In this document: positions 31,768-41,371 of the stretch, one piece after another
Layout of the letters: each line of letters begins with the position of its first letter
Numbering within the stretch: position 1 is the stretch's first letter
Assembly (NCBI GenBank): GCA_026392115.1
Contig: JAPLCQ010000146.1
Span: forward strand, 1-43,609
Length of the DNA stretch: 43,609 nucleotides
From: Armatimonadota bacterium
Lineage (GTDB): Bacteria; Armatimonadota; Chthonomonadetes; Chthonomonadales; CAJBBX01
Direction of reading: 5' to 3'
Program-made: the position numbers and the translations under genes
The notes under the pieces: generated by a model
What the model saw: the letters and a program-made list of their open reading frames with translations, nothing else
The model's database searches: none
What the model was told of the DNA's origin: nothing

Positions 31768-33087
31768 CTACTCGCCCCAAGCGTAACGCTTGTAGTAGTA
31801 GGCTCCCTTGGGCTTGAAGTACTCATTGCCGAACGACGCATTGTTCTGCGCGGTGATCGTATTCGCCACGCAGGAGCCGCGGAAGCCCAGATTGTTCTGG
31901 ACCGTCATGGCGCCGATGGGAGCCCCGTTGACCTTGTTGTAGGCATAGAGCCCCACGTTGCAGCTGAAGTTGTTCTGGCCGATCAGGCCGGCCTGCGTCC
32001 CGAAGTAGAACTTCACCGGCTTGTTCACGTCGTCGTTGGTCGTCTTGGTCCAGGTGACGTTGTTCTGGCCGGTCCAGCCGCCAGACCCGCCGCTGGGACC
32101 GAACCATATCGTGATCGGACCGTTGGAGTTGTCAAATGTCACCGAGACATTGTTCTGGAGCGTGGCGGATGTCAGGTAGTAGTTGGACCCACCGACCTTG
32201 CTTGGGAACCGCAGGGTCTTGCCGTTACCCAGGCTGATGGTCGTGGCGGAACTGCCTGCCGTCCCGTTCCGCACGATGGCGGTGTTGTCGTTGTGCGTGG
32301 CGATGTAGGCCAGGCCGCCGGGCGCCGTGGATCCCGAGTTGGGGTAGAGCTTCAGGGCGATCTCGTCAACCGTCGGCCAGGTGATCGCGTCGGTGTTCAC
32401 GACCTTGGTGAACGCGCAGTTGTTCTGCGACGTGATGCTCGCGCCGGGCCCGTTGAGATCAAGGTTGCCGCCATTGAATACAACATTATTCTGGATGGTG
32501 ATGGCGCCATTGGTTCCAGAGTGACCGGACACGATCACATTGTTCTGCGCCGTAAAGGCCGAGATCGCGTAGAAGACGTAATCGCCCGGCGGGGTCAGCG
32601 TCGTACCGTCCACGTCGATCGGCGCCTGTGCCTGGTTCGCCCTGACGGTGACAGAGCGCACGATGCCGTTCGACACGCCGAATGAGACGACCGTTACGCT
32701 GCTGCCGGGCTTCCCAACCGACCCGGCGAAGTAGCCGTTGCTCGATCCCGCCGGGTAGGGAGTGATCGCGTAGGTTCCGGCGGCGACCCCTGCCTTGAAC
32801 TCGGCGATGGTGGGCGCCACTCCGCCGGGGTACTGGTACAGCGGCGGAAGGCTCGCATATGTGGAGGCCCCGAATGTGAGCCTGCTGATGTACGCGTTTG
32901 CGCCGGCCTCGGCCAGATGGAGGGCGCGCTCGTAGTGCAACTCAGTTGAGGAGACCTTCAGCTCGCTGACGGTCTGGAGGCACGACGAGGATACGACTAT
33001 CGTGAGGCACGCCGACAGCATCACTGCGGCGACCAAGGCTGCGCCGCGTCGACTGCGGCCGCCTCTTGCCCGATCATTGTGAACCAT
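31768..33087 (-). CDS. PilX-N-type surface protein with eight QNN motifs (paralogue 1)
   Basis: A protein of 439 residues. The N-terminus (RRGAALVAAVMLSACLTIVV, then ELHYERALHLAEAGANAY) is typical of PilX/PilX-N pilus-associated proteins: a basic start, one hydrophobic helix and an Ala/Glu-rich helix. The passenger from about residue 165 holds eight QNN motifs at regular places (TAQNNVIVSG, TIQNNVVFNG, TSQNNCAF, TLQNNVSV, TGQNNVTW, IGQNNFSC, TVQNNLGF, TAQNNASF), each followed by a hydrophobic or polar strand pattern. Asn at repeated turns is typical of beta-solenoids with Asn ladders, so I infer a right-handed beta-helix exposed on the surface. It ends in YKRYAWGE. The start at 33087 has GGAG about ten bases upstream. 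Very close in sequence to paralogue 2. Confidence 0.8.
   Translation of the reverse strand: MVHNDRARGGRSRRGAALVAAVMLSACLTIVVSSSCLQTVSELKVSSTELHYERALHLAEAGANAYISRLTFGASTYASLPPLYQYPGGVAPTIAEFKAGVAAGTYAITPYPAGSSNGYFAGSVGKPGSSVTVVSFGVSNGIVRSVTVRANQAQAPIDVDGTTLTPPGDYVFYAISAFTAQNNVIVSGHSGTNGAITIQNNVVFNGGNLDLNGPGASITSQNNCAFTKVVNTDAITWPTVDEIALKLYPNSGSTAPGGLAYIATHNDNTAIVRNGTAGSSATTISLGNGKTLRFPSKVGGSNYYLTSATLQNNVSVTFDNSNGPITIWFGPSGGSGGWTGQNNVTWTKTTNDDVNKPVKFYFGTQAGLIGQNNFSCNVGLYAYNKVNGAPIGAMTVQNNLGFRGSCVANTITAQNNASFGNEYFKPKGAYYYKRYAWGE
31841..32547 (-). repeat. Eight in-frame copies of a CAGAACAAY codon block inside paralogue 1
   Basis: On the plus strand these read TTGTTCTG (one copy TTATTCTG), always at the same codon phase and always encoding Gln-Asn-Asn. 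The flanking codons vary, so the conservation is of the QNN triplet itself rather than of a longer DNA repeat. The spacing is irregular along the gene (roughly 45 to 250 bases), as expected if each copy marks one turn of a solenoid with variable loops. Confidence 0.7.
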
Positions 33088-33546
33088 GGTCAGCACTCTC
33101 CATCCGTAGGCTCTACACTCACGCACCATCGCCTTGAGCTGACGGTGCGGCTCCGCAGAACGCGCGGAGGCGTTGAGCGCACGGCACAAGAGGGACGCTG
33201 GGCGGGCGCATACACCTGCATATCACACGTTCTACCACGCAGAGTATACGAAGAGGGGTGGCCCAAGCCAAGGCGCTGCCGTACCTGACAAGGCGGCAGA
33301 GGTGCACCAGTGGTCCAGATGGCGGTGCGATACCGTCGGCGAGGCGCCGGCTACCGGTCGGCAGCGAACCGCCTTGGGGCTGAGGTCGCCCTGCGGCGGT
33401 CCGAACGGGTGATCCGCAACAGGACCCATGGTAGGAGTGCGCGGCAACAGCGCCTGATACACCGCGCCACGCTCACACCCAAGGAATCCAGACTTCACAG
33501 CCCGGCGGGCACGCTCCCGGCGGAGGCCCGGTGCGCCGCGTTTCGG
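33088..33546. other. 459-base intergenic stretch without a recognisable gene
   Basis: This lies between paralogue 2 and paralogue 1 of the PilX-like proteins. Apparent reading frames have no family features. It must hold the promoter and leader for paralogue 1: on the minus strand GTATACT near 33250 is the only hexamer resembling a -10 box, without a good -35. A small hairpin with arms CGCACC and GGTGCG occurs near 33124-33151. I see no RNA gene or known riboswitch. Confidence 0.5.
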
Positions 33547-34869
33547 CTACTCGCCCCAGAAGAGGCGCTTGTAGTAGTACGCGCCTCGCGGCTTGAAGTA
33601 CTCGTTGCCGAACGAGGCATTGTTCTGCGCCACGATGGTGTTCGCCACGCACGACCCGTGGAAGCCGAGGTTGTTCTGGATCTCCATGGCTCCGATCGGC
33701 GATCCGTTGACCTTGTTGTAGGCGTAGAGGCCCACGTTGCAGCTGAAGTTGTTCTGGCCGATGAGCGCCGCCTGTGTGCCGAAGTAGAAGGTAACAGGCT
33801 TGTTCACATCGTCGTCCGTGGTCTTGGTCCACGTCACATTGTTCTGGCCGGTCCAGCCGCCCGCGCCTCCGCTGGGTCCGAACCAGATGGTGATGGGGCC
33901 GTTCGAGTTGTCCAGCGTGACCGCCACCTTGTTCTGGAAGGTGGCAGAGGTCAGATAGTAGTTCGATCCTCCCGGCTTGCTGGGGAACCGAACGGTCTTG
34001 TTGTTATCCAGGTTCAGCGTGGTGGCAGGGCTGCCCGATGTGCCGTTGCGGACGATGTCGGTGTTGTCGTTGTGCGTTGCCAGATGGACCAGCCCCCCCG
34101 GAGCCGTCGCGCCGGCGTTCGGGAACAGCTTGAGAGCGATCTCATCCACGGTGGGCCAGTCCACGGGGTCCGGGTTCACGACCTTCGTGAAGCCGCAGTG
34201 GTTCTGGTGGGTCAGGGTCGCATTTGGGCCATTCAGGTCCAGCGTGCCATTGATGAACACCACGTTGTTCTGAATGGTGATCGAGCCATTGGTGCCGGCG
34301 TGGCCGGAGACGATCACGTTGTTCTGCGCGGTGAACGAGGTGATCGGGTAGAAGACGTAGTCGCCAGGCGGCGTCACCGTCGTCACGCCGTCGATCTCCG
34401 ATGGCGCCAGGACCTGGCCGGCCCTGAGGGTCACGGACCGGACGATCCCATCGGACCAGCCGAACGCCACGATGATCGCCGTCTTGCCCGGGCGCCCCAT
34501 CGTACCGACATAGTAACCTTCGTCCGAGCCGGCCGGATACGGAACGAGCGTGTAGGCGCCGGAGTCGACGCCGACCTTGAACTCGGACAGCGACGGCGCA
34601 ACCCCGCCGGCGTACTGATGCAGCGGCGGCAGGCACGCGTAGGCCGCGTCGCCAAACGTGAGCCTGCTGATATAAGCGTTCGCGCCGGCCTCGGCCACGT
34701 GCAGGGCGCGTTCGTAGTGAAGCTCCGTCGATGAGACCTTGAGCTCCCCAACCGTCTGGAGGAACGCAGAAGCCACAATGATCGTGAGGCAGGCCGAGAG
34801 CATGACTGCTGTCGCGAGGGCGAGGCCGCTCCGGCCACGACGCCCCATTGCCACGTCCGCGATGTCCAT
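33547..34869 (-). CDS. PilX-N-type surface protein with QNN motifs (paralogue 2)
   Basis: A protein of about 440 residues, strongly similar to paralogue 1 over its whole length, including the hydrophobic N-terminus (LALATAVMLSACLTIIVASA), the ELHYERALHVAEAGANAYIS helix, and the QNN motif set. Six motifs are exact (TAQNNVIV, TIQNNVVF, TGQNNVTW, IGQNNFSC, IQNNLGF, AQNNASF), and two have drifted (HQNHCGF, FQNKVAV). The C-terminus YKRLFWGE matches. The near identity of the last third points to a recent duplication or ongoing gene conversion. The start is uncertain between TTG 34875, ATG 34869 and ATG 34848; GGTGGG upstream favours the first two. The role is inferred as for paralogue 1. Confidence 0.78.
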   Translation of the reverse strand: MDIADVAMGRRGRSGLALATAVMLSACLTIIVASAFLQTVGELKVSSTELHYERALHVAEAGANAYISRLTFGDAAYACLPPLHQYAGGVAPSLSEFKVGVDSGAYTLVPYPAGSDEGYYVGTMGRPGKTAIIVAFGWSDGIVRSVTLRAGQVLAPSEIDGVTTVTPPGDYVFYPITSFTAQNNVIVSGHAGTNGSITIQNNVVFINGTLDLNGPNATLTHQNHCGFTKVVNPDPVDWPTVDEIALKLFPNAGATAPGGLVHLATHNDNTDIVRNGTSGSPATTLNLDNNKTVRFPSKPGGSNYYLTSATFQNKVAVTLDNSNGPITIWFGPSGGAGGWTGQNNVTWTKTTDDDVNKPVTFYFGTQAALIGQNNFSCNVGLYAYNKVNGSPIGAMEIQNNLGFHGSCVANTIVAQNNASFGNEYFKPRGAYYYKRLFWGE

Positions 34870-34906
34870 CGTCAACGTTTCCCACCTGCTGGGCGGCGCC
34901 CATGGC

Positions 34907-34930
34907 GCCTGACCGCGGATGCGGTCAGGC
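34907..34930. terminator. Perfect hairpin between PilX-like paralogues 3 and 2
   Basis: GCCTGACCGC (34907-34916) and GCGGTCAGGC (34921-34930) form a 10-base perfect stem with a GGAT loop, 37 bases beyond the stop of paralogue 3. No T run follows, so it may end, weaken or protect the upstream transcript rather than act as a full terminator. Confidence 0.5.
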
Positions 34931-34966
34931 AGATCGGTGTTTCCAGGGAATGGCGGCTCGGTCCGG

Positions 34967-36286
34967 TCACTCCGCCCAGAGGCTGACGCGGTAGACGCCG
35001 GTGCTGTCCGGCGTGAAGTAGGGCACGGTGAACTCGGCGTTGTTCTTCAAGGCGACATGGTTGGCCACGATAGACCCCGTGAAGCCGAGGTTGTTGTTCG
35101 CCTCGACGTACCCGATAGGCGCGCCGTCGTTTGTCTTGTCGTAGGAATAGAGACCCAGGTCGCCGGACACGTTGTTCTTGCCGGTCATCCCGCCTGTCGT
35201 GGCAATGTAGACGCGGCACCATCGGCTGATGTCGCCGGTGACCGTCTGCGTGATGCTGACGCCGTTTTTCGTGAACCAGCCGCCCGATCCGCAACGAGGC
35301 CCGATCCAGATGGTGACCGGTCCCAGCGCGTTGTCCAGCGTCACGGAGCCCATGTTCACGAAGCTGAGCTCCTCGAGGTAGTAGTTGGCGCCGCCGCTCT
35401 TGCCCGTGAAGGTCACGCTCTCACCGTTGCGGAGTACGAGCCGCGGACCGTAGCTCCCCGCCGCGCCGTTCACCCGGATCGACGCGTTGTCGTTGTGGAG
35501 CGCCAGGTAGTCGAGCCCGCCGGGCGCGGTTCCGCCCGAGGCCGGGAACTGCTTGAGGGCGATCGACGAGACCGTTGGCCAGAGCAGCGGGTCCGCAAAG
35601 GGCATTCGCGCGAACTGGTTGCCCAGGCCCATGACGACCGAGGCGTGCGGCCCGTTGAGCTCCAGGCCGCCGGTGATCACGTTGTTGTTCTGAACCACCA
35701 CCAGTCCGTTGGTGCCCACCTTGCCCGTGACCTGAAGGTTGTTCTGCAAGGTCAGGAGGGAGACGGCGTAGATGGCGTAGTCGCCGGGGAAGGTCAGCGC
35801 CGTCTCGCCGTCGATCGACGAGGGGGCGCGGGCCACATTGGCCGTGATGCGCGCGCTGCGCACCACGCCGTTCGACCATCCGTAGGCGACGATGATGCAC
35901 CGGGATCCGGGCCGTCCCAGGGTGCCGGCGAAGTAGCCCTGCTGGGAGCCCGACGGCACGCGGATCAGTTCATAGAGGCCGTTCTGCACGCCCTGCTTGA
36001 ACTCGGAGCACGTGGGGGCGATACCGTCCATGTACTGGTACAGGGGCGGCAGGTAGGCGTATCCGGCCGTGCCGAAGGTCAGTCGGCTCAGGTAGGCGTT
36101 GGCGCCAGCCTCGGCGAGCATGAGGGCCCGCTCATAGTCGCGCTCCGTCTTGGAGAGCCCCAACTGCGTCACGACCTGCAGCCCCGTGCCACCCATGAGC
36201 ATACAGAGGCAGAGGCTCAGGACGAGGACTACCACCAGGGCCAGCGCCCGGCATCGACGGACTCCGCGCGGCCTGCTCAGCGTCAT
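34967..36286 (-). CDS. PilX-N-type surface protein, diverged paralogue 3
   Basis: A protein of 439 residues. The N-terminus (ALALVVVLVLSLCLCMLMGG, then YERALMLAEAGANAYLSRL) and many shared blocks (PPLYQY, WPTVSSIALKQFP, TAPGGLDYLALHNDN, TIWIGP) show common origin with paralogues 1 and 2. The QNN positions are mostly changed here: LQNNLQV, VQNNNVI, GKNNVSG, ANNNLGF, KNNAEF and others, so Asn-Asn is kept while Gln is often replaced. The C-terminus is VYRVSLWAE. This divergence makes it useful for telling which residues of the repeat matter. GGGAGGG lies about six bases before the ATG. It follows the polysaccharide synthase gene after 124 bases on the same strand. Confidence 0.78.
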   Translation of the reverse strand: MTLSRPRGVRRCRALALVVVLVLSLCLCMLMGGTGLQVVTQLGLSKTERDYERALMLAEAGANAYLSRLTFGTAGYAYLPPLYQYMDGIAPTCSEFKQGVQNGLYELIRVPSGSQQGYFAGTLGRPGSRCIIVAYGWSNGVVRSARITANVARAPSSIDGETALTFPGDYAIYAVSLLTLQNNLQVTGKVGTNGLVVVQNNNVITGGLELNGPHASVVMGLGNQFARMPFADPLLWPTVSSIALKQFPASGGTAPGGLDYLALHNDNASIRVNGAAGSYGPRLVLRNGESVTFTGKSGGANYYLEELSFVNMGSVTLDNALGPVTIWIGPRCGSGGWFTKNGVSITQTVTGDISRWCRVYIATTGGMTGKNNVSGDLGLYSYDKTNDGAPIGYVEANNNLGFTGSIVANHVALKNNAEFTVPYFTPDSTGVYRVSLWAE

Positions 36287-39862: not shown

Positions 39863-41146
39863 TTACTGAGCGTAATACCGCAGTAGCGGCGCCTCCGCCG
39901 TCCAGAGCTCCTCGAACAAGGCACGGATCTGGTCCAGCGAGAGGGTAGCCCGGGTCAGCGGGTCCATGGCGCAGGCGTGGAAGGCCGCCTCCTTGTCCTT
40001 GTCGAGGAAGGCCCGCACCGCCAGCTCCTGGACCGCCACGTTGGAGGCGTTGAGATGCGCCAGTTGCGCGGGAAGCGGTCCCGGACATGTGGCGTGGACC
40101 CCGGCCCCATCGACGAGGCACGGCACTTCCACGCAGCACCCGGCGGGCAGGTTCGGGATGAGGCCCGTGTTCATGACGTTGCCGTTGAACTCGTACGGGC
40201 CGCCGGAAACCACCGCCTCGATGATTCGGCTGGCGTACTCATTACTGGGTGTCAGGGCAGGAATCTCGACCTCGTCGGGCGCCTCCAGCCACTGCCGGCC
40301 TCCCCCGCCAGTCTCTTCCACGACGCGCTCCGTGAGCTGGTAGTGCGTCATCAGGTCGGCGTTGCGGCGGAAGTAGGGGTGGTACTCCGAGCAGTGCGTG
40401 CTGCTCTCGGTCACGAAGTAGCCGAAGTGCCGGAACATCTCGAACCGGATGCGGTCCTTGGCCACCGTGTCCGGGTCGTCCAGCTTGGCTCGAAGGGCGG
40501 GATAGAGGTCCTCGCCCAGGTGCGTCAGCTTGAGGAACCAGGCCTGGTGGTTGATGCCCGCCACATGGTATCGGACCTCCTCGTACGGCACGCCGAGGTA
40601 GCGGCTCAACTCGCCCGCGGTGCCCTGCACGCTGTGGCAGAGTCCGACGTTGCGGATGGAGCTGGCCGCGGAGTGCGCCCAGGTGAGCATACACATGGGG
40701 TTGGTGTAGTTGAGCATGAGCGCGCGCGGGCAGAGCTCCTCCATGTCCAGGCAGACGCCCACCTGGATCGGCGCGGTGCGGAGGAAGCGGAAGACGCCGC
40801 CCACCCCGATGGTGTCGGCGATGCTCTGGCTGAGCCCGTAGCGGTTCGGAATGTTGGTCTCGACGTTGGCCGGGAAACCGTGGTACGCCGGGCCGCCGGC
40901 GGAGATGCTGGTGATCACGAAGTCCGCGCCGGCCAGCGCGCCGCGGCGGTCCAGGTGGCCTTCGACCGTAGCTGGCAGGCCGTGTGTCTCGATCACCCGC
41001 TCGACGTAGCGCTTGGCGTTGGTCAGCTTGCGCTCGTCGATATCGCACAAGGCGATGCAAGCGGCGCGGAGGCTCGGTTGTGAGAGGATGTCCCTGGAGA
41101 GCGTGGCGCCGAACCCGCTGCCCGCCCCGATGATCGCGATGCGCAT
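39863..41146 (-). CDS. GH4 family glycosidase (alpha-galactosidase/galacturonidase type)
   Basis: A protein of 427 residues. The NAD-binding Rossmann start IAIIGAGSGFGATLSRDIL is followed by GH4 hallmarks: CDIDERKL, NYTNPM at 146-151, GLCHSVQG with Cys170 and GINHQAW with Asn199 and His200, where the Cys and His hold the Mn ion. GH4 enzymes use an oxidation-elimination route with NAD and Mn and do not need a classical acid pair. The absence of the phosphate-binding signature of 6-phospho-glucosidases cannot be judged safely here, but the CHSVQG form resembles MelA-type alpha-galactosidases and galacturonidases. AGGGGG lies six bases before the ATG at 41146. It is divergent from the peptide-modification locus. 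Confidence 0.93.
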   Translation of the reverse strand: MRIAIIGAGSGFGATLSRDILSQPSLRAACIALCDIDERKLTNAKRYVERVIETHGLPATVEGHLDRRGALAGADFVITSISAGGPAYHGFPANVETNIPNRYGLSQSIADTIGVGGVFRFLRTAPIQVGVCLDMEELCPRALMLNYTNPMCMLTWAHSAASSIRNVGLCHSVQGTAGELSRYLGVPYEEVRYHVAGINHQAWFLKLTHLGEDLYPALRAKLDDPDTVAKDRIRFEMFRHFGYFVTESSTHCSEYHPYFRRNADLMTHYQLTERVVEETGGGGRQWLEAPDEVEIPALTPSNEYASRIIEAVVSGGPYEFNGNVMNTGLIPNLPAGCCVEVPCLVDGAGVHATCPGPLPAQLAHLNASNVAVQELAVRAFLDKDKEAAFHACAMDPLTRATLSLDQIRALFEELWTAEAPLLRYYAQ

Positions 41147-41322
41147 CGTAGTCCCCCTTGGAAGTGCGTGATGGCCGAAGATTACCAGAGCCGCCGAGCG
41201 CGCCGACGTCCGCTCCGCGCCCTGAACCACAAATCCGGCGGCACACGGCATTGGACGGGAACGATCCGGACCCGGTAGGCGTCTGTACCAGTACACGTCG
41301 TGACGCTTCGGACGGACAACGT

Positions 41323-41341
41323 TTGGCCTTTGCGCGGCCAA
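41323..41341. promoter_or_regulatory. Inverted repeat directly upstream of the -35 box, possible operator
   Basis: TTGGCC (41323-41328) and GGCCAA (41336-41341) are perfect inverted half-sites spaced by seven bases, ending two bases before the -35 hexamer. The geometry suits binding of a dimeric regulator. A second short inverted pair, TGACG and CGTCA, flanks the likely transcription start at about 41371-41390. No regulator gene is seen in the window. Confidence 0.45.
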
Positions 41342-41343
41342 CA

Positions 41344-41371
41344 TTGACTAGACGGGCGTTGGCGGTATAAT
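41344..41371 (+). promoter_or_regulatory. Sigma70-type promoter of the peptide-modification locus
   Basis: TTGACT at 41344-41349 and TATAAT at 41366-41371 are separated by 16 bases. This is the clearest housekeeping-type promoter in the window and lies about 100 bases before the precursor-peptide start, giving a leader of about 95 bases. Confidence 0.75.

Follow-up and report, generated by a model that had tools for sequence, protein, structure and literature searches.

Predicted beta-solenoid-headed pilins in three adjacent copies in an Armatimonadota bacterium: candidate alternative tips of a type IV pilus

Introduction

A pilin with a beta-solenoid head is already known, namely ComZ, for which a position only at the filament tip has been argued on structural grounds (PMC6561018). 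Minor pilins have been described as a tip complex that is capped by a subunit without Glu5 (PMC10191384), and modular pilins, in which a grafted head is presented, have been called widespread (PMC8179133). Furthermore, the combination of a PilX N-terminal domain with DUF3494 has been listed in a metagenome study (PMC9957290).

Here, we describe three genes of an Armatimonadota bacterium (GCA_026392115.1, contig JAPLCQ010000146.1), located in a window of 43,609 nucleotides, the whole stretch of DNA that was analysed, whose span 31768-36286 is filled by three open frames on the minus strand (P0001, P0002, and P0003; Table 1). Their family, its predicted fold, the turn position of a repeated triplet, the operon context of the relatives, an empty operon slot, and the tree were computed. 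We propose, with a probability of roughly 0.7, that the three proteins are alternative tip pilins of a type IV pilus, which carry a solenoid head for an external ligand. A first-pass annotation had taken them for pilin-type proteins with QNN triplets on a predicted beta-solenoid; its observation was mostly right and is partly confirmed, and its interpretation is partly supported. As far as the literature was searched (titles and the beginnings of abstracts, and four papers in part), the Armatimonadota family, its place in the operon, the empty slot together with duplicated copies elsewhere, and the joint change of the triplets are new.

Results and discussion

Three paralogues and the nearest sequence family

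That the span holds three adjacent paralogues, as first annotated, was borne out by full-length alignment, in which P0002 and P0003 share 76% and 51% identity, respectively, with P0001 from end to end, and these are the sole three family members found in their 5.7-Mb genome. P0001 and P0002 had also been noted as alike at the 3' end, and their identity is indeed 88% over the final two segments of the comparison. Since the fourfold-degenerate sites in those segments differ at 24/33 and 15/28, as much as elsewhere, this likeness reflects conservation at the protein level, and recent copying of DNA by gene conversion is ruled out as its source.

Table 1. Coordinates of the genes and gene parts discussed, in the window unless a contig is named
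Feature	Position	Strand	Remark
P0001, predicted solenoid-headed pilin, copy 1	31768..33087	-	439 aa from ATG; in-frame TTG at 33189 (31768-33189)
P0002, copy 2	33547..34869	-	440 aa from ATG; longer frame 33547-34875
P0003, copy 3, diverged paralogue	34967..36286	-	439 aa
PilX_N-like prepilin N-terminus of P0001	32902..33048	-	Gly at -1, no Glu at +5
Passenger of P0001	31771..32586	-	predicted beta-solenoid as in DUF3494/ComZ; ends W-G-E
Insert of P0001	32188..32418	-	residues 224-300, two short helices; DSSP of model
QNN site 1 of P0001	32539..32547	-	alignment + model
QNN site 2 of P0001	32485..32493	-	alignment + model
QNN site 3 of P0001	32419..32427	-	alignment + model
QNN site 4 of P0001	32149..32157	-	alignment + model
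QNN site 5 of P0001	32059..32067	-	alignment + model
QNN site 6 of P0001	31969..31977	-	alignment + model
QNN site 7 of P0001	31891..31899	-	alignment + model
QNN site 8 of P0001	31840..31848	-	alignment + model
Three-domain carbohydrate-related protein beside P0003	36411..39812	-	1133 aa
Three tandem copies in G018	L082 7584-11744	+	
Second-head-type protein	L033 493-2193	-	
Second-head-type protein	L114 3328-4932	-	
Second-head-type protein	L018 1417-3048	+	
Second-head-type protein	L038 5944-7575	+	
Putative PilM-PilN fusion	L078 10515-12113	+	
Gene between solenoid pilin and PilV-like gene	L085 9118-10839	+	about 520-590 aa
Gene between solenoid pilin and PilV-like gene	L080 10590-12155	+	about 520-590 aa

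By profile matches, the nearest sequence family of the passenger appears to be Pfam DUF7305 (PF23981), so that the earlier statement that no described family was known does not stand: the passenger goes with DUF7305, and its fold with ComZ and the DUF3494 proteins. The window proteins score 13.0-18.7 bits, below the curated cut-off of 27, and two of the five relatives tabulated lie above it (35.7 and 32.5 bits); in the whole alignment, where DUF7305 and PilX_N were counted at E up to 1 instead of the curated cut-off, 12 of 19 family members match DUF7305. In a profile search with the passenger (E up to 0.001), 41 of the 291 genomes searched in the phylum contained family members, many of the weaker ones matching only part of the passenger. 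A match to a known characterised domain, named by the annotation as an argument against itself, was obtained for the fold (ComZ and DUF3494), and none to a characterised family by sequence.

Other searches yielded little. A DUF7305 scan of the own genome returned no match, likewise in the control genomes; sequence searches of the PDB gave no useful match, and the one with a profile, run up to E 10, did not retrieve ComZ; homologue searches in plasmids and in viral contigs led nowhere. In titles and the beginnings of abstracts, we found no paper naming DUF7305, and nothing useful on Armatimonadota pilins or on DUF3494 with pilins. Two further candidate families were rejected, bactofilin, which 3/9 members match weakly (best E 0.082), and a TorF-like porin, matched at E 0.054 only.

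Predicted fold of the passenger

Structures were predicted with AlphaFold2 for P0001 (from nine sequences) and for P0003 (with the membrane helix removed). The P0001 model reached a mean pLDDT of 71.8, with the passenger mostly at 80-93 and a poor N-terminus and last 17 residues, and the P0003 model 67.8 overall, with most of the passenger at about 80-92 and a poor pilin part; the last 15-17 residues and the pilin part were poorly predicted in both. The two models support the earlier suggestion of a beta-solenoid passenger with triplets at its turns, with every one of the eight sites at the turn that joins the same pair of strands, and a fold lacking solenoid turns at these sites, the opposite outcome, was seen in neither. 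In P0001, both Asn of 8/8 QNN are in coil between strands (the passenger overall being 47% coil), as are 8/8 triplet sites in P0003. We read the strand order of each coil in the models as a, triplet, b, c, and, judging from the alternation along the strand, the first triplet residue probably points outward. The insert of P0001 separates the first three from the last five triplet coils. At the C-terminus, the ending that had been annotated as W-G/A-E is kept, W-x-E being nearly invariant among 20 passengers.

A Foldseek search with the P0001 model ranked ComZ first (E 3.6e-4) and DUF3494 proteins after it; the global TM-scores were low, at 0.2-0.3 by query length. VIA-align matched P0001 to the ice-binding protein FfIBP with Z 17.4 (rmsd 2.9, 193 aligned) and to ComZ with Z 15.3 (rmsd 4.0, 234 aligned), the next row being at 8.1, and P0003 to the same two with Z 18.0 and 15.7 (242 residues for the latter), the next row being at 8.5; DUF3494 ice-binding proteins overall gave Z 16-18.

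With the highest Z values coming from DUF3494 ice-binding proteins, one could picture pilins whose DUF3494-like head grips ice. We consider this reading scarcely credible, as DUF3494 is not among the ten Pfam families matched by any of 19 members at E up to 1, and as records of relatives are named LaPlata and Chthonomonas calidirosea, which we take to be warm sources. Although PilX N-terminal with DUF3494 (pfam14341_pfam11999) is listed for Arctic metagenomes (PMC9957290), the likeness of fold to ice-binding proteins was regarded by the authors of ComZ, in their discussion of it, as uninformative on function (PMC6561018).

A turn triplet that changes as a set

The annotation had placed Asn-Asn at the same eight positions in all three proteins, the third altering only the Gln. 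This holds for P0001, which has QNN at 8/8 aligned sites, a number that chance does not approach (when P0001 was shuffled 20,000 times, QNN occurred 0.11 times on average and never more than 3 times), but not for P0002, with QNN at 6/8 (QNH at site 3 and QNK at site 4), nor for P0003, whose triplets at sites 1-8 read QNN QNN GLG VNM KNG KNN NNN KNN, so that Asn-Asn is present at only 5/8 sites and QNN still at 2/8. The supposed conservation of QNN itself is likewise lost outside the window's genus, where three genomes of its family (G006, G009, and G011) have KNN at four or five of the sites, G045 has KNN or KNG at four, and most other aligned members show NGN, NGS, NGG, and similar at the triplet places; what the alignment shows to be conserved is a turn with Asn or Gly as the middle residue.

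Within one protein, the triplets resemble each other. In a post hoc test, designed after the table had been seen, restricted to 7/8 sites (site 3 was omitted as poorly aligned) and based on column shuffles that ignore relatedness among passengers, this likeness over 20 passengers was 0.61 versus 0.28 in the shuffles for the first residue and 0.92 versus 0.52 for the middle residue, values reached by 0/2,000 shuffles; with one passenger per genus (n=11), it was 0.55 versus 0.24 and 0.95 versus 0.52, respectively. The contrast between NG and NN coincides with little more than one deep division in the tree and may therefore be a single event. That the triplets of a protein change together across its coils (QNN, KNN, or NGx by lineage) fits stacked ladders of turns, and the aligned triplet table supports the structural, ladder-like role first suggested.

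KNN at four or five coils in several relatives would line up lysines, as might be expected if these proteins were DNA receptors of natural transformation, whose solenoid tip catches DNA for uptake as proposed for ComZ. Moreover, ComZ heads the Foldseek ranking, no other pilin among the rows listed has such a head, and ComZ binds DNA together with a partner pilin (PMC6561018). However, Gln stands in place of Lys in P0001 and P0002, the passengers carry little or negative net charge (+4, -2, and -2 for the three window proteins and as low as -15 in relatives), and the lysines mapped in ComZ are placed between its two domains and not on such a ladder (PMC6561018), which together make a DNA receptor unlikely in our judgement.

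The pilin module and the operon of the relatives

The pilus-type N-terminus of the annotation is corroborated by a prepilin-like start, a weak match to a pilin structure, and, above all, the pilus operons around homologues. PilX_N scores are 19.8-20.0 bits for P0001, 15.4 for P0002, and 9.6 for P0003, all below the Pfam cut-off of 25.5, and the model is matched at E up to 1 by 11 of 19 family members, the best E being 4.3e-7. Residue -1 is Gly or Ala in 25/25 family proteins listed, with Ala instead of Gly before the cleavage site of P0003, and Glu at mature position 5 in 0/25; either Gly or Ala is allowed before the prepilin cleavage site (PMC10191384). The P0001 model contains predicted helices at 12-34 and 47-72, and its residues 44-152 match the Thermus pilin 6qvf with Z 6.9, which is too weak alone.

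Gene context was compared over 18 genomes, including that of the window, from a listing in which overlapping frames had been thinned by length and to which P0002, P0003, and the G007 homologue were added from other searches; G001, G002, and G011 were taken as the same genomes as L035, L036, and L037, having the same open frames, and counted once. A homologue adjoins type IV pilus genes in 11/18, with PilMN-like genes in nine and PilV- and PilW-like pilins in eight. For the representative L078, Pfam recognised PilB, PilC, an N_methyl pilin, a PilM/PilN-like gene (weakly), and a secretin. PilV/PilW-like is our own provisional label, given from prepilin-like N-termini and place, and the two such pilins tested had no Pfam match.

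Minor pilins of this kind might also be placed along the filament or belong to a secretion pseudopilus, the solenoid then acting as a spacer or substrate adapter: a filament-body position is considered possible for modular pilins with a flexible linker (PMC8179133), and GspK-like subunits are reported to serve secretion systems (PMC10191384, PMC8179133). We judge this very unlikely, since a capping subunit is the better fit to the lack of Glu5 and to an operon that contains PilC, PilMN, secretin, and N_methyl pilins.

Other genes of these operons were seen as well. L078 and homologues contain a frame of about 530-585 aa with both PilM-like and PilN-like matches, which looks like a PilM-PilN fusion, the scores being weak and below both cut-offs. 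G008, G010, G012, and G014 (here in two frames) have a further gene of about 520-590 aa that separates the solenoid pilin from the PilV-like gene and of which one copy was scanned with no Pfam match; the start of this gene holds a DVNNDG stretch, which we take to be dockerin-like.

An empty slot and duplicated copies

The gene lies away from the pilus operon in 7/18 genomes (G000, which is the window's own, G001, G002, G045, G018, G007, and G004). No pilus gene adjoins P0001-P0003 in the window, and their pilus link therefore rests on homology. Their genome encodes PilB, a PilT-like ATPase, PilC, and a prepilin peptidase, and its pilus operon consists of PilB, PilC, pilin, PilV-like, PilW-like, and PilMN, with no solenoid pilin between the pilin and the PilV-like gene. 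The slot is likewise without a solenoid pilin in G002, where the operon was seen through to the secretin, and the G001 contig stops short of it; the empty slot is visible in these two genomes of the genus, G000 and G002. Further, diverged homologues occupy the operon slot in G045 and G012.

The tree unites the copies of the genus in a single clade (99/99), whose neighbours are operon-borne genes from the same family, and P0003 separated from P0001/P0002 before the species of the genus diverged; G001 has three copies and G002 two. Taking together the empty slot, the single clade beside operon-borne genes, and the multiple copies, we consider it most likely that, in the window's genus, the gene moved out of the operon and was duplicated.

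G018 provides another example of relocation and duplication, its three tandem copies lying apart from the pilus operon. A second head type, with the same pilin-like first 200 residues and a different, longer passenger without triplets, was found in four proteins (Table 1), and one protein of this type occupies the operon slot in G045. In the window, a gene located between P0003 and the gene at 39863-41344 encodes GH18, polysaccharide deacetylase, and family 2 glycosyltransferase domains; as it is absent from this place in the genus mates G001 and G002, it was dismissed as a conserved partner.

Working model and significance

Following from the lack of Glu5, the tip argument made for ComZ, and the wide occurrence of modular pilins, we read P0001-P0003 as tip pilins acting with the minor pilins of the operon. 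Each gene would encode a modular minor pilin of the PilX/GspK-like kind, in which the prepilin peptidase would process the N-terminal part, made up of a helix and a small pilin domain, and this pilin module would dock with minor pilins of the PilV-like and PilW-like types in the type IV pilus of the cell. Without Glu5 and with its large head, the subunit would cap the filament. The head would be a beta-solenoid of DUF3494/ComZ topology with QNN at the same corner of every coil, where Asn (Gly in other lineages) would take the turn and the first triplet residue would face outward in a stacked ladder, and its surface may bind an external ligand such as a surface, a polysaccharide, or DNA. With the gene outside the operon and multiplied in the genus, one machine could be fitted with alternative tips.

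A tentative extension, which we regard as possible but doubtful, is that the turn triplet serves as the unit of selection for the whole head: lineages would rewrite one corner of many coils together (NGx versus xNN in almost every coil; K replaced by Q at sites 4-8), the outward ladder would form part of the binding surface, and relocation and multiplication would lead to interchangeable tips with different ladders.

Among solved pilins, these searches met such a solenoid head in ComZ alone, and the present work adds an entire family from a different phylum, in which the head occurs at the operon position of a capping minor pilin. Solenoid tips thereby become testable outside Thermus, and DUF7305 gains a likely role. 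In addition, the relocation and duplication of a tip gene, together with a coherent triplet change over the coils, amount to a natural experiment on the purpose of the solenoid edge.

Comparison with known systems

ComZ of Thermus thermophilus (PDB 6qvi) resembles the window proteins, as modelled, in being a pilin with a large beta-solenoid head, in its long insert, the segment Glu216-Ala301 joining the two ends of its solenoid, and in its proposed tip position next to a partner pilin (PMC6561018). In contrast, ComZ was not matched by sequence in the profile search of the PDB, the window heads measure about 270 residues versus about 380 in ComZ, and the window proteins carry the repeated triplet ladder. 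The DUF3494 ice-binding proteins (FfIBP 4nu2, LeIBP, and others) have the solenoid fold predicted for the window heads, whereas the window heads lack a match to the DUF3494 model and are grafted on a pilin. DUF7305 is matched by the C-terminal coils, with two relatives above the cut-off and the window proteins below. Finally, the arrangement of a pilin module with a grafted head is reminiscent of PilX/GspK-type capping minor pilins and of modular pilins such as PilB of Streptococcus sanguinis, and the family shares with the former the lack of Glu5 and, in the relatives, a place beside PilV/PilW-like genes; the type of head differs from both, and so does the situation in the window's genus, where the genes stand outside the operon in two or three copies.
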